Virus record (IMG/VR): IMGVR_UViG_3300035701_000128
Coordinates: 1-36,999 of that record
Origin: a virus
Reading direction: 5' to 3' (one strand)
DNA: 36,999 nt
Shown here one piece after another: positions 6,339 through 10,773 of the stretch (position 1 is its first letter; every line of letters starts with the position of its first letter). Both the position numbers and the translations under genes were made by a program. The notes beneath the pieces were generated by a model. The model made no database searches. It was not told the origin of the DNA and saw only the letters and a list, made by a program, of their open reading frames with translations.

Positions 6339-7843
6339 TGCCTTTTGATGTCAGAATGCCTGATGGCACACTTCTTCGTAATGTACCTGATGGAACAACA
6401 CAAGAAGATATCCTTGATAGATATAACGCTTCTCAACAACCTACAGCACCTATAGAACAGCCAGCTCAGACTCGTTCTATACCTGACCAAATTGCTAGAC
6501 AAGTTGGGCTTACAGCTCGTGCTGGTCTTGAGGCTTTTACTTCACCAGCTACAGCAGTATTAGAAGCAGGTAGAACAGCATATAACATGGGTGCTGAAGC
6601 TTTGGGTTCTGAAAGTCGTATACCTTCTTTTTACGCAGAACAAGCTAAGTCTTTAACACAAGCTGGTCTTCCTCAAGCTGAAACAGGATTAGAAAGAGCT
6701 GTACAAGCTGGGACACAAGCTTTAACAAGTACAGCAGGATTTGCCAAAGCATTGCCTAATGTACCTGCATTTGCTGCTGATTTAGCTAGACAATTACCAG
6801 CAGCGTCGGTAGCTGGTTTAGTTAGTCAACCTGTCGGGGAACTTGTTAAAGATATTACAGGTAGTGATTTAGCAGCTTTCATTGCAAGTGCTGGTGCAGG
6901 TGCGGCAGGGGCAGCAGGAACTGGTAAAGCTATCAGTGCGGCACAGCAAGCAAAGAATCCGTTGTACACAATGGCAGAAATTAAGCAAAGAGCTTCCAGA
7001 GCTTACAATACAATGGATGAAGCTGGTGTTGTTTTAAAACCTGAAAGCACAACAAAAATGCTAACAGATGTAAGACAAGCACTTGATGATGCTAGAATGA
7101 TTCCAGGCACAGAACAAGCTAAAGAATTAAATGCTCGTATTGCTCAAGTACAAAGCATGATTGATAAAAACGGTGTGTCTTTTACTGCGTTTGAAAAAAT
7201 GCGTGGTATCTTTAATGATTTAAAAACAAACAGCGATGGCGATTTAAGAAGGCTTGGTGGAGTAGCTGTTAATAAAGTAGATGACTATATTAGCACTGTT
7301 ACTGGAAAAGATTTAATTGCTGGTCAAGGTGGTATTGATAAAGCTGTGCAAAGTGTTATGTCTGCTCGTAAAGACTGGAGAAACGCTAGCCGTGCTTCTA
7401 TTCTTGATGACGCTTTAAATGTAGCTGAAGCAAAAGCATTAGACCCAAAAGCTTCTGAGAGTGAGTTGATTCGTCGTGGGTTTATTAACATTGCTGCTGA
7501 TAAAAAGAAAATTAATCTGTTTACAGAAAAAGAACAGAATGTAATTAAGTCTGTAGCTAAAGGTGGTTCATTAGACCCATTATTAACTTTTGCTTCACAG
7601 TTTAGTCCATTGCGTTCAAAACTAGCAGCTGCTGGTGGTGCGTATGCGTTTACACAGATGCCTGTAACCACAACAGCTGTAGCAGGAAGTGGTTTAGCTG
7701 CTGATTTATTACAGAGTTCTTTAAGACAAAGAGCAGCACAACAAGCAGTTAAACAAATTGCTTCTGGAGCTGTTCCAAATCAATTACCAAGTTTAGCTTC
7801 TACAGGTCTGTTGACAAGTGCTTTAAACCCTCCAGGACAATAA
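6338..7843 (+). CDS. internal virion protein candidate (gp16-like), no transglycosylase domain
   Basis: A 501-residue protein. The first 30 residues (MPFDVRMPDGTLLRNVPDG…) match a small N-terminal module often seen on large phage internal or ejection proteins. The remainder is Ala-rich and helical, with hydrophobic Ala/Gly stretches around residues 180-200 (IASAGAGAAGAAGTG) and 430-455 that could insert in membranes. T7 gp16 carries a lytic transglycosylase; no EAR/SLT-type catalytic motif is visible here, so peptidoglycan cutting on entry must come from elsewhere or be absent. It is coupled by TAATG on both sides. Confidence 0.55.
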   Translation: MPFDVRMPDGTLLRNVPDGTTQEDILDRYNASQQPTAPIEQPAQTRSIPDQIARQVGLTARAGLEAFTSPATAVLEAGRTAYNMGAEALGSESRIPSFYAEQAKSLTQAGLPQAETGLERAVQAGTQALTSTAGFAKALPNVPAFAADLARQLPAASVAGLVSQPVGELVKDITGSDLAAFIASAGAGAAGAAGTGKAISAAQQAKNPLYTMAEIKQRASRAYNTMDEAGVVLKPESTTKMLTDVRQALDDARMIPGTEQAKELNARIAQVQSMIDKNGVSFTAFEKMRGIFNDLKTNSDGDLRRLGGVAVNKVDDYISTVTGKDLIAGQGGIDKAVQSVMSARKDWRNASRASILDDALNVAEAKALDPKASESELIRRGFINIAADKKKINLFTEKEQNVIKSVAKGGSLDPLLTFASQFSPLRSKLAAAGGAYAFTQMPVTTTAVAGSGLAADLLQSSLRQRAAQQAVKQIASGAVPNQLPSLASTGLLTSALNPPGQ

Positions 7844-8292
7844 TGAGATTAGCCTACTTTGTTATAGGTCTATTGATAGGTGGTTCTATCGCAGGAGCGA
7901 TGGCACAGCCTATCATAACTGATTCTACAAGCAGAGCAGAGACTACAGTTAAGTCTCCTCCTCCATCAGCTATTAGCCCTAGTATAACTACTATCAATAA
8001 CAAGATGTGTAGTAGCGGTGTTGCTGCTGCCGTACAGACACAGATATTTGGTATCTCAATGGGTAGCACTGTTCGTGATAGTAACTGTGAGATGATTCTT
8101 AAAGCAGAGACTCTATTCAATATGCAGATGAAGACAGCAGCTGTGGCAGTAATGTGTCAAGACTCTGCTAACTGGTGGGGTATGTGGGATGCTGGTACTT
8201 ATTGTCCAGTTGAGGGATTTGTCGGTAAGGAAGCTAAAGACTATTGGTTAGCTAATCCTAAGATGATTCCTGACAGACCGCAGATAAAATGA
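7843..8292 (+). CDS. exported four-Cys protein
   Basis: A 149-residue protein with a clear N-terminal signal peptide (MRLAYFVIGLLIGGSIAGAMA, then Q) and a likely signal peptidase I site after AMA; no lipobox. The mature part has four Cys (in KMCSS, SNCEM, MCQDS and TYCPV), suggesting disulfides in the periplasm or outside. A helical stretch with AETLFNMQMKTAAVAVM lies in the middle. It is coupled to the internal protein gene upstream and overlaps the NIDO-like exported gene downstream, so the two are probably made together just before lysis. Function unknown; o-spanin is unlikely without a lipobox. Confidence 0.7.
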   Translation: MRLAYFVIGLLIGGSIAGAMAQPIITDSTSRAETTVKSPPPSAISPSITTINNKMCSSGVAAAVQTQIFGISMGSTVRDSNCEMILKAETLFNMQMKTAAVAVMCQDSANWWGMWDAGTYCPVEGFVGKEAKDYWLANPKMIPDRPQIK

Positions 8293-9497
8293 GATGGCTG
8301 GCACTGATTGCATTATGGTGCAATATAGCAACTGCACAAGTTGTAGTACAACACAATATCTCAGATGATGGCTATGTTAGAGTTCCACTTCAGTTTCCAT
8401 TTCCTTATTATGGTCGTGTTTTTACTGAGTCTTTTATGTTCAGTAACGGTGTTGTTGGCTTTCTCAATCCAAGTAATAGTTGGTGCTGTACTGGATTTAA
8501 TCTCGAAACAACGGTAGGTAGTCCATTTAGCTATGCGATTATGCCTCTGCAGACAGACTTGCTTAACTATAGTGGCAGGTTCTTAACAGAAGGAACACCT
8601 CAGTATCAACGATATAAGTGGGAGAACATCAGTGAGTTTGGTGTCCCTAACAATCTTAATACCTTTGGTGTAGAGATTAGACCTAGTGGCTACATTGGTA
8701 TGCACTATGAACAGGTTAACATCAGTCCTTGGAGACCTGTTACAAGAGGCATGACAGGAAACACTGAAGCAGGTGAATATACACAGTATTATCATGGTCC
8801 TGGCTACAGCAGTATAGAAAATGTAGGGTATATTACACAAAATACTGGCGACAGGTGTGCAGTAGACCCTCTATTTAGTCCTAGTTGTCCTGGTTATCAG
8901 TTAGCTTTCTACAACCAACAATGCACTGTGAACCCACTATATGACGCAAGCTGTTACGGATATGCAGAAGCTTATCTCAATCAACAATGCAGCTCTAGTG
9001 CGTTGTATGACAGAAGATGTCCTGGATACAACTCAGCTTATGCACTTGCAAATGTTGTGTCAGCACCAACACCAGTTGTATCAAGACCTGCTTTACAAAT
9101 CAGCTCGTCAGGTAGAGTCTCTGTCGAAACTCCTATCGTGTCTGACACAGTTGTCAACGAAGTAATAACAAGACCAAATGCTAATACATCAGTTCAACAG
9201 ACTAATCAAGAACCTAATAGACCTGCCTCAGTACAGACAGAACCAAAGACGGAGAAGAAGACTGAGGCTAAACCGCAAGCTCAGACTAGGAAAGCTGAGA
9301 GTAAGAATGAAGTCACGGCTAAAGGACCTACGATAGTAGATGTGCAGATTCAACAACCTAATGTCTTAATTATAGACATGATGTACAAACAGCTCATTAA
9401 AAAGCCGATACAAGATAACAACAGAGCTTATTATGCTCTGATAATGAATAGTCAGAAAACACACGAGGAGATGGTAGATGAGCAGTATAGAAGATAA
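8289..9497 (+). CDS. exported nidogen (NIDO)-like protein with 22-residue Cys repeats
   Basis: A 402-residue protein with a signal peptide (MRWLALIALWCNIATA, cleavage before Q17). Residues about 34-150 have the NIDO-domain pattern: FPFPYYGRVFTESFMFSNG, then a hydrophobic strand, IMPLQTDL and FGVEIRPSGYIGMHY. NIDO domains are extracellular adhesion modules. Residues 190-252 hold three copies of a 22-residue unit with Cys at 190/200, 212/222 and 234/244 (pattern C-x4-L-[YF]-x3-C-x-G-Y-x2-A-[FY]). A charged Lys/Gln/Thr linker (about 290-350) leads to a helical C-terminus. It sits just before the lysis genes. Roles such as adhesin or receptor blocking are inference. Confidence 0.75.
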   Translation: MRWLALIALWCNIATAQVVVQHNISDDGYVRVPLQFPFPYYGRVFTESFMFSNGVVGFLNPSNSWCCTGFNLETTVGSPFSYAIMPLQTDLLNYSGRFLTEGTPQYQRYKWENISEFGVPNNLNTFGVEIRPSGYIGMHYEQVNISPWRPVTRGMTGNTEAGEYTQYYHGPGYSSIENVGYITQNTGDRCAVDPLFSPSCPGYQLAFYNQQCTVNPLYDASCYGYAEAYLNQQCSSSALYDRRCPGYNSAYALANVVSAPTPVVSRPALQISSSGRVSVETPIVSDTVVNEVITRPNANTSVQQTNQEPNRPASVQTEPKTEKKTEAKPQAQTRKAESKNEVTAKGPTIVDVQIQQPNVLIIDMMYKQLIKKPIQDNNRAYYALIMNSQKTHEEMVDEQYRR

Positions 9498-9918
9498 GAA
9501 GCCTGACTACGAGTTCAGCGTTGGTGGCTATAAACTTAAGTATTCTAACAAGTTATTAGCTATGATTATCGCTATTACTCCTATCCTTGGTGGCACTCTT
9601 TGGGGTGCTTTTGAAGCTGTTAAAGGTTATCAGTCTATGCAGAAGAAGATTGATACTTATGTCGCTCCTGACTTGTCAGAGTTTGATAAGAGATTAGCTA
9701 CACTAGAAGAGTCTACAGCTAAGGTTAATGATTACACAAGAGACATCAAGAATGATATTAAGAATGATGTTCGTAGGCTTGAGAAGGTTGTAGAGCAGGT
9801 AGAAAGAGACGGTAAACAGTTATCTCGTGAAGTAGACAAAGACATTAGAGAGATGCGTAGAGAGACTGACACCAAGATTAAACGAGCATTAGATAACCCA
9901 TTATCAAACAAGGATTAA
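9478..9918 (+). CDS. membrane-anchored coiled-coil protein, i-spanin candidate
   Basis: A 146-residue protein with a short N-terminal domain, one transmembrane segment (about residues 27-48: LLAMIIAITPILGGTLWGAF) and a long, highly charged coiled coil (residues 52-140, heptads with KKID, EKVVEQVERD, REVDKDIREM). GAGGAG precedes ATG 9478, which overlaps the NIDO gene by 20 bases. Placement directly before holin and endolysin and the TM-plus-coiled-coil layout fit an inner-membrane spanin. The cytoplasmic N-terminus of about 25 residues is longer than usual, and no o-spanin partner was recognised. Confidence 0.55.
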   Translation: MSSIEDKKPDYEFSVGGYKLKYSNKLLAMIIAITPILGGTLWGAFEAVKGYQSMQKKIDTYVAPDLSEFDKRLATLEESTAKVNDYTRDIKNDIKNDVRRLEKVVEQVERDGKQLSREVDKDIREMRRETDTKIKRALDNPLSNKD

Positions 9919-9920
9919 CC

Positions 9921-10325
9921 ATGATTCCAATCGCAGCCATTTTAAGCATCGGTGAGAAGGTATTAGATAGAGTATTGCCTAACCCAGAAGCTAAAGCCAA
10001 AGCTCTTGCTGAACTAGCTAAGATAGAGCAAGAAGGTAAGTTAGCTGAGTTACAAGCTGACAATGTTGAATCTCAGGAAGTTAGCAGTCGTTGGAATGCT
10101 GACATGGGTTCAGATTCTTGGTTGTCTAAGAACATTAGACCATTGACTTTGATTGCAATTCTTATTGGTTACTTTGTATTTGCCACAGCATCAGCTTTTG
10201 GTCTTGATGTTAAACAGGCTTATGTTGAGTTACTAGGTCAATGGGGTATGTTGATTATGTCTGCTTACTTTGGTGGTCGTACCTTAGAAAAGATTATGGA
10301 TAAGAAGAATGCAATTAACAAGTAA
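9921..10325 (+). CDS. holin, 3TM (GTA-holin) family
   Basis: A 134-residue protein with an amphipathic charged N-terminus (LPNPEAKAKALAELAKIEQE), the family hallmark WNADMGSDSWLSKNIRPLTL (about residues 59-78), then two hydrophobic segments (LIAILIGYFVFATASAFG and LLGQWGMLIMSAYFGGRTLEK). This matches the Holin_3TM family of gene-transfer agents and many phages, which permeabilises the inner membrane to time lysis. AGGA precedes the ATG. Its last 17 bases overlap the endolysin gene, the usual coupling of holin and endolysin. Confidence 0.85.
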   Translation: MIPIAAILSIGEKVLDRVLPNPEAKAKALAELAKIEQEGKLAELQADNVESQEVSSRWNADMGSDSWLSKNIRPLTLIAILIGYFVFATASAFGLDVKQAYVELLGQWGMLIMSAYFGGRTLEKIMDKKNAINK

Positions 10326-10773
10326 CTTTAGTTTAAAAGAACTTACTGTATCAGAGACAGCTACTCGTAAGGGGTTAGATAACACCCCTAGTGAGGCTAT
10401 TACTGCTAACCTTAAGACACTAGCTGAGACCATCCTACAGCCTCTTAGAGAGCATTATGGCAAGTCTGTGAAGGTCAACAGTGGCTATCGCTCTCCTGAT
10501 GTCAATGCCTCTGTAGGAGGCTCTAAGACCTCTGACCACTGTAAAGGTCAAGCAGCAGACATAGAGATTGCTGGAGTTGCTAATGGCGAGTTAGCTAACT
10601 ACATTGCTTCTAACTTTAAGTTTACACAGGTTATCCTAGAGTTCTATACTCAAGGTATACCCGATAGTGGATGGGTTCATGTATCTTATGATGCTAACGA
10701 CCTAAAGTGTCAAACACTGACAGCGGTCAAGAAAGACGGTAAGACTGTGTACTTACCTGGTTTAGTTGTATAA
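10309..10773 (+). CDS. endolysin, M15_3 family L,D/D,D-peptidase
   Basis: A 154-residue protein of the M15_3 zinc peptidase family, which cleaves peptide cross-links in peptidoglycan. Visible motifs are NSGYRSPDVN (58-66), SDHCKGQAADIEI with zinc ligands H77 and D84, and WVHVSYD with H124. The length suits a single-domain endolysin. There is no signal peptide, so export depends on the upstream holin. The ATG at 10309 lies inside the holin gene with AAGAAG before it. It is the last gene of the rightward transcription unit. Confidence 0.9.
   Translation: MQLTSNFSLKELTVSETATRKGLDNTPSEAITANLKTLAETILQPLREHYGKSVKVNSGYRSPDVNASVGGSKTSDHCKGQAADIEIAGVANGELANYIASNFKFTQVILEFYTQGIPDSGWVHVSYDANDLKCQTLTAVKKDGKTVYLPGLVV

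Follow-up and report, generated by a model that had tools for sequence, protein, structure and literature searches.

An o-spanin is defined by a lipobox, which fixes the protein to the outer membrane. The two spanin proteins Rz and Rz1 contact each other through their C-termini, and Rz1 is proline-rich (PMC6139136, PMC5295617). No spanin is recognizable in 91 of 677 Gram-negative phage genomes, i.e., in about one in seven (PMC6139136). We analyzed three consecutive genes, A, B, and C, in an IMG/VR virus record of 36,999 bases (IMGVR_UViG_3300035701_000128, positions 1 to 36,999), the whole of which is called the window here. The window is that of a podovirus-like phage, with genes for terminase, portal, DNA polymerase, primase/helicase, and ribonucleotide reductase. 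Genes A, B, and C follow the last gene of the structural region and precede the holin and endolysin genes, and their ends overlap: the first base of gene A is also the final base of the gene before it, A and B share 4 nucleotides (nt), and B and C share 20 nt. We find that A-B-C recurs as one unit across many phages, and we tentatively propose that its products may assemble across the envelope into a spanin-like complex acting in the last lysis step. A and B had been noticed before, from the letters of this DNA alone, as an exported pair; both open reading frames (ORFs) lie where this original prediction had put them, overlap, and adjoin the lysis genes, which encode a GTA-type holin with three transmembrane (TM) segments and an M15 endolysin. 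The features of the locus are as follows (aa, amino acids).

7843..8292, + strand: gene A, 149 aa, with signal peptide, Ser/Thr-rich linker, SPPPSAISPS, and four-Cys domain (ORF; phrog_20531 match; 84-sequence alignment)
7954..7983, + strand: SPPPSAISPS motif of A, aa 38–47, kept in nearly all relatives
8008..8247, + strand: four-Cys domain of A, aa 56–135 (AlphaFold2 model)
8289..9497, + strand: gene B, putatively exported modular protein, 402 aa (ORF; 39 IMG/VR relatives)
8337..8846, + strand: N-terminal NIDO-like beta domain of B, aa 17–186 (profile links, model)
8856..9053, + strand: three 22-aa Cys repeats of B, aa 190–255 (sequence, relatives, model)
9075..9419, + strand: disordered Pro/Lys/Glu-rich linker of B, aa 263–377 (model, identity to relatives)
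9420..9494, + strand: conserved C-terminal helix of B, aa 378–402, ending in HEEMVDEQYRR (alignment, model)
9478..9918, + strand: gene C, 146 aa, with one N-terminal TM segment, a long charged helix (predicted periplasmic), and C-terminal RALDNPL
9921..10325, + strand: holin, GTA_holin_3TM, phrog_3427 (Pfam and PHROG matches)
10309..10773, + strand: endolysin, peptidase M15_3, phrog_894 (Pfam and PHROG matches)

Relatives of B were found in 39 IMG/VR loci. A was present in all 35 of those with upstream DNA, and in the other four the contig starts inside B. A scan with the A profile gave at least 600 matching stretches, all confirmed relatives, so that exported pairs of this kind, which had been thought rare in short-tailed phages, are in fact common in these and in other aquatic phages. 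From these stretches 80 loci were kept, and in nearly all of them the gene after A is B-type; A and B thus travel together. The predicted pair is, however, part of a trio that extends to C: clustering of all genes around A revealed C as a third constant gene. Of the 114 loci with enough sequence, 105 have, after B, a gene with a TM segment and an NPL end, compared with 7 of 1,727 control ORFs elsewhere in the same loci that end in NPL; these loci were gathered by A or B similarity and are a non-random phage sample, the contrast with the controls being internal to the loci. Compared with four relatives, the ratio of nonsynonymous to synonymous polymorphism (pN/pS) was low for all three genes (A, 0.21–0.31; B, 0.28–0.37; C, 0.13–0.30), and we therefore conclude that A, B, and C are protein-coding and under purifying selection.

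The module occurs in podovirus-like and T4-like phages and in contigs of 120–316 kb. Cultured carriers include the Pelagibacter phages HTVC023P, HTVC033P, HTVC115P, HTVC202P, and Baldr as well as the T4-like Mosig; HTVC023P has the same arrangement, with A as gp45, B as gp46, C as gp48, and the M15 peptidase as gp49. SAR11 (Pelagibacter) is the ocean's commonest bacterium. In the Roseobacter phages CRP-810 and CRP-207, A is present and the next gene is not B-type, with a C-type gene following in CRP-810. A scan of bacterial genomes gave 25 matches. As these were mostly on short contigs of metagenome-assembled genomes and possibly misbinned, we take the module to be viral. Neither Pfam nor PHROGs assigns a function to the A, B, or C family, and among open-access papers we found no description of the module, which agrees with its earlier designation as an exported and apparently undescribed system.

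At the N-terminus, A and B each have a run of uncharged, hydrophobic residues together with a plausible cleavage site for signal peptidase I (..GAMA|QP in A and ..IATA|QV in B). The signal peptides that had been claimed for both genes are thus predicted here as well, and homologues keep the pattern: a crude signal rule was satisfied by 151 of 154 A relatives and 143 of 147 B relatives, yet also by 37% of all genes called in the loci. The rule therefore says little about a single gene, and its strength lies solely in the conservation of the pattern.

In protein A, the four cysteines (C56, C82, C105, and C121) are invariant in the 84-sequence alignment. The AlphaFold2 model has a beta hairpin (residues 57–78) and four helices, with a predicted local distance difference test score (pLDDT) of about 90 or more over residues 81–140 and about 90 for residues 81–149 as a whole; comparison with PDB folds gave nothing similar. 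The four-Cys domain matches phrog_20531 (E=2.3e-12 over aa 36–122), the sole match in Pfam and PHROG scans of A. Many A relatives end in a hydrophobic, TM-like stretch (GLLLLLL). This end is found in 72 of 87 loci with a large A/B overlap, where it is coded within the ~65–71 nt shared with the B signal peptide, whereas 60 of the 61 loci whose overlap is small or absent, the window's class, lack it. In one of the large-overlap loci (L079:10494-10561) and similar ones, the same 65–71 nt are thus read in two frames, as the hydrophobic end of A and the signal peptide of B. In the A proteins of three loci (L069, L100, L127), the SPPPSAI motif is preceded by very long TNTNTN/SN repeats, which apparently form a variable-length linker.

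Protein B is modular. In its relatives, about 280–850 aa long, a swappable N-terminal domain is followed by 0–12 Cys repeats and, beyond a disordered linker, by a conserved C-terminus. In the window, the cysteines of the repeats are exactly periodic (residues 190/200, 212/222, and 234/244), and the 22-residue unit is retained in relatives in 2 to 12 copies, with none or one in other B types. An expansion of this unit is seen in a B protein with 12 repeats (L044:4789-6729), compared with three in the window. The model of B has a confident beta domain (aa about 19–183), one helix for each repeat (pLDDT about 90), a disordered region at residues 263–377, and a C-terminal helix of lower confidence. 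Identity to close relatives follows this architecture, with 83–89% in the N-terminal domain, where vicinal Cys66-Cys67 is invariant, 59–74% in the repeats, 42–60% in the linker, and 81–92% in the last 26 residues. Across relatives the C-terminus reads approximately DN...L....LH.EMVD.QY, by eye and profile, and is more diverged in most pelagiphages.

The N-terminal domain of B had been assigned to the extracellular NIDO domains. The sequence features on which this was based, i.e., the FPFPYYG..SNG and IxPLxTDL patterns (the latter as I.PLQTDL) and the three 22-residue Cys units, are all present in B. A Pfam scan of B gave no match at E<=0.1, so that the gathering cut-off of NIDO (PF06119) was not reached, and a PHROG scan gave none either. 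A profile of the domain matched five relatives (L069, L100, L122, L053, and L092; E 4e-16 to 3e-32), of which the first, matched at 4e-16, itself matches Pfam NIDO at E=0.0087 with 16.5 bits, under the cut-off of 25. Among PDB folds, the predicted beta domain reached a best Z of 5.6, in the range of common arrangements, with no clear match. PDB sequence-profile comparisons were empty or at chance level. In a library of viral structures, the B model matched only phage proteins lacking a function, and a tblastn search of 50,697 phage records with B or a short B query gave no match. The NIDO claim thus stands as a transitive profile link through L069, without a direct Pfam match or a clear structural one; we call the domain NIDO-like from these profiles, short of proven membership. 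Other B proteins have N-terminal domains that are carbohydrate-binding-like or unrecognized. Because the N-terminal domain is freely swapped while the C-terminus is retained, NIDO as the essential part of the system is not supported.

Protein C starts with a short segment, which is followed by one hydrophobic stretch and a long, charged region resembling a helix, and its C-terminal end is of the ALDNPLA type; pelagiphage C proteins end in KNPLG, SDNPLAQ, AKNPLAG, ENPLR, or SNPLAN. It matches coiled-coil families weakly and nothing else, and we call it coiled-coil-like from sequence and hydropathy. In a sister group (L189–L199), a different B, with the C-terminus QDLGFEQ, is accompanied by a different C ending in NRLGN or NRLGQ, i.e., B and C change together there; the pelagiphages show that this coupling is not strict. 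Three sister B proteins of this group (L189, L194, L199), upstream of the holin, have Cys-rich modules with CPSG.WTEWQ motifs that by eye resemble thrombospondin type 1 repeats, with no Pfam match listed in the scan of the group. The gp51 of CRP-810 (L129:7219-7641), annotated as lysozyme, is a C-family protein with a TM segment, a charged helix, and the end NKNPLGR.

About 50 marine loci (L055–L138) have three extra conserved exported genes between B and C, c4 (about 166 aa), c5 (about 130 aa), and c6 (about 140 aa), with no Pfam match above cut-off. To the eye, c4 resembles a beta-rich two-Cys subunit; c6 has two conserved cysteines and a C-terminal helix. An assignment of c6 as an A paralogue was rejected (hhalign 36%), and a pilin and chaperone role for c4/c5, considered by eye, was unsupported by profiles.

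Among 139 scanned genes located directly downstream of the module in 65 diverse loci, the families recognized most often were Phage_lysozyme (8), class-3 lipase (6), M15_3 (5), SprT-like (5), and GTA_holin_3TM (3), followed by S11 carboxypeptidase (DD-carboxypeptidase; 2), GH19 (2), and one Rz1-like LysC gene. The envelope and lysis theme downstream of the module is clear, though not universal. The class-3 lipase genes (cluster c54) stand just after the module in L072, L075, L091, L136, L137, and L138 and possibly encode an outer-membrane lipid-degrading lysis helper. On neither strand of the window did we find a lipobox protein with a slightly relaxed consensus that does not cover rare non-consensus lipoboxes such as AWAC. 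Lipobox proteins were also few near the module in 112 loci, and nothing over cut-off matched the Rz family PF03245 in 39 records.

From the gene order, the timing implied by position, the i-spanin-like topology of C, the linker and conserved C-terminus of B, and the lack of a recognized spanin, we propose the following spanin-like model. A, B, and C would be made late as one unit with holin and endolysin. C would lie in the inner membrane, N-terminus inside, with one TM segment and a coiled-coil-like rod reaching into the periplasm with the NPL tip. The variable N-terminal domain of the exported B may grip something host-specific in the outer layer, be it outer membrane, lipopolysaccharide (LPS), or wall glycan, while its linker and conserved C-terminal helix may reach back to A and/or C; A would be an exported disulphide-rich hub. 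After wall removal by the endolysin, the bridge might act as Rz-Rz1 does, joining the membranes or tearing the outer one, with the binding domain of B as outer anchor in place of a lipid.

Several observations weigh against this model. No member of A-B-C has a lipobox for outer-membrane anchoring, and with no lipoprotein present A-B-C is not a spanin by formal definition. A search for a canonical spanin in the same slot of phages without A-B-C, at 15 loci with the same holin family, gave no convincing candidate. Where inspected, this slot held an unrelated tail-anchored protein, and the slot alone is therefore no proof of spanin function. Some modules do not adjoin a recognized endolysin. With 280–850 aa and a swappable binding domain, B looks over-built where a small spanin pair would suffice, and a large host-variable binding domain is easier explained as an adhesin. 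Finally, gp25 of the Achromobacter phage JWAlpha (L131:6515-7429) has the A domain among early/replication genes, without B or C; the independent occurrence of the two genes, named earlier as an observation that would refute the original prediction, is thus found at the margin. Given the missing lipoprotein, the loci without A-B-C, the adhesin-like domain, and JWAlpha, we hold the spanin-like model with reserve, as a possible rather than a probable one.

The main rival is surface display against superinfection. B would be a surface or periplasmic adhesin whose N-terminal domain attaches to a glycan or receptor at the surface, leading to a superinfection block, masking of receptors from released progeny, or clumping of cells and debris, and A and C would hold or export it. 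A swappable extracellular-type domain (NIDO-like or resembling carbohydrate-binding modules) on variable repeats and a linker, with a fixed C-terminus, is the usual build of an adhesin, the exported c4–c6 genes would fit it, and pelagiphages carry another surface module, curli, for which such a role has been proposed (PMC9599517). However, A and B have Sec signals only, with no outer-membrane export device recognized, and the late, lysis-linked position is odd, since superinfection exclusion is usually early. We judge the adhesin explanation rather unlikely.

Alternatively, B might act in the periplasm to regulate or assist wall degradation; bound to peptidoglycan or a glycan of the wall, it would, jointly with A and C, control or focus the endolysin and so the timing of lysis. 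The linkage to lysis genes and the sugar-binding-like domains of B proteins are consistent with this, and Sec signals alone suffice for a periplasmic location. But peptidoglycan is conserved, which leaves the strong variation of the N-terminal domain unexplained, and A and C remain constant across loci whose endolysin families differ (lysozyme, M15, GH19). We consider such a role improbable. That the module forms a virion component or a receptor-binding accessory built into the particle, as its place directly after the structural-region genes might suggest (the gene upstream of A matches phrog_21712, major head protein), is very improbable because A and B have Sec signal peptides whereas tailed virions assemble in the cytoplasm, and the same module occurs in podovirus-like, T4-like, and 120–316 kb contigs with different particles. 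In the structural region itself, the protein encoded at 1114–2712 of the window matches the amidase-labeled phrog_5107 (E=8e-31) plus head-closure families; the amidase label is possibly a mislabel.

If A-B-C does the job of a spanin, this would account for how many aquatic phages, SAR11 phages among them, lyse the outer membrane, and would present a new design, a variant of trans-envelope lysis complexes in which a binding domain replaces the lipid anchor. If it displays an adhesin instead, it would be a widespread phage means of remodeling infected cells, and if the spanin-like model is wrong, A-B-C may be a new kind of system. We regard it as nearly an even call that A-B-C is a new, phage-only trans-envelope machine, composed of an NPL-plugged membrane rod, a disulphide hub, and an exchangeable adhesin extended by repeats. 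Such a machine would either take the place of lipoprotein spanins, its outer anchor gripping a sugar or protein, or display the adhesin on the infected cell, and its genes would be among the most widespread uncharacterized sets in aquatic phages. In both cases, many unannotated genes, including gp51 of CRP-810, can be named as parts of one system from their A, B, and C signatures.

Among described systems, the curli type VIII secretion system of pelagiphages (PMC9599517) is likewise an exported surface module spread across phage families of aquatic bacteria. It has its own gene set (CsgG, CsgF, CsgA/B, and FecR), and since the genes differ, with no Pfam match to CsgG, CsgF, or CsgA in A, B, C, or the listed neighbor tallies, A-B-C as a curli module was ruled out. 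With NIDO (PF06119), B of the window shares the two sequence patterns and the transitive link, unlike NIDO proteins it has no direct Pfam match, and other B proteins replace the domain altogether. The phrog_20531 protein JWAlpha gp25 has the four-Cys domain of A, but it is 304 aa long with a long Gly/Asn-rich N-terminus and stands alone among replication genes. Unimolecular spanins (T1 gp11, roseophage SIO1 type) resemble the many A relatives that combine beta structure with a signal at the N-terminus and a TM-like stretch at the C-terminus; the A signal, however, is of the signal peptidase I type, the alignment of A relatives has no lipobox pattern, A of the window has neither a C-terminal TM segment nor a lipobox, and B and C accompany A. 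Two-component spanins (lambda Rz/Rz1, T7 gp18.5/gp18.7) differ from A-B-C in that the latter consists of three proteins without a lipoprotein, B has a large swappable binding domain, and C has a near-invariant C-terminal NPL. In common with them, A-B-C lies in the lysis cassette, C has, as judged from its sequence, the i-spanin topology of an N-terminal TM segment and a helical, predicted periplasmic domain, and B, whose C-terminus is conserved and whose flexible linker contains Pro, would be the partner.

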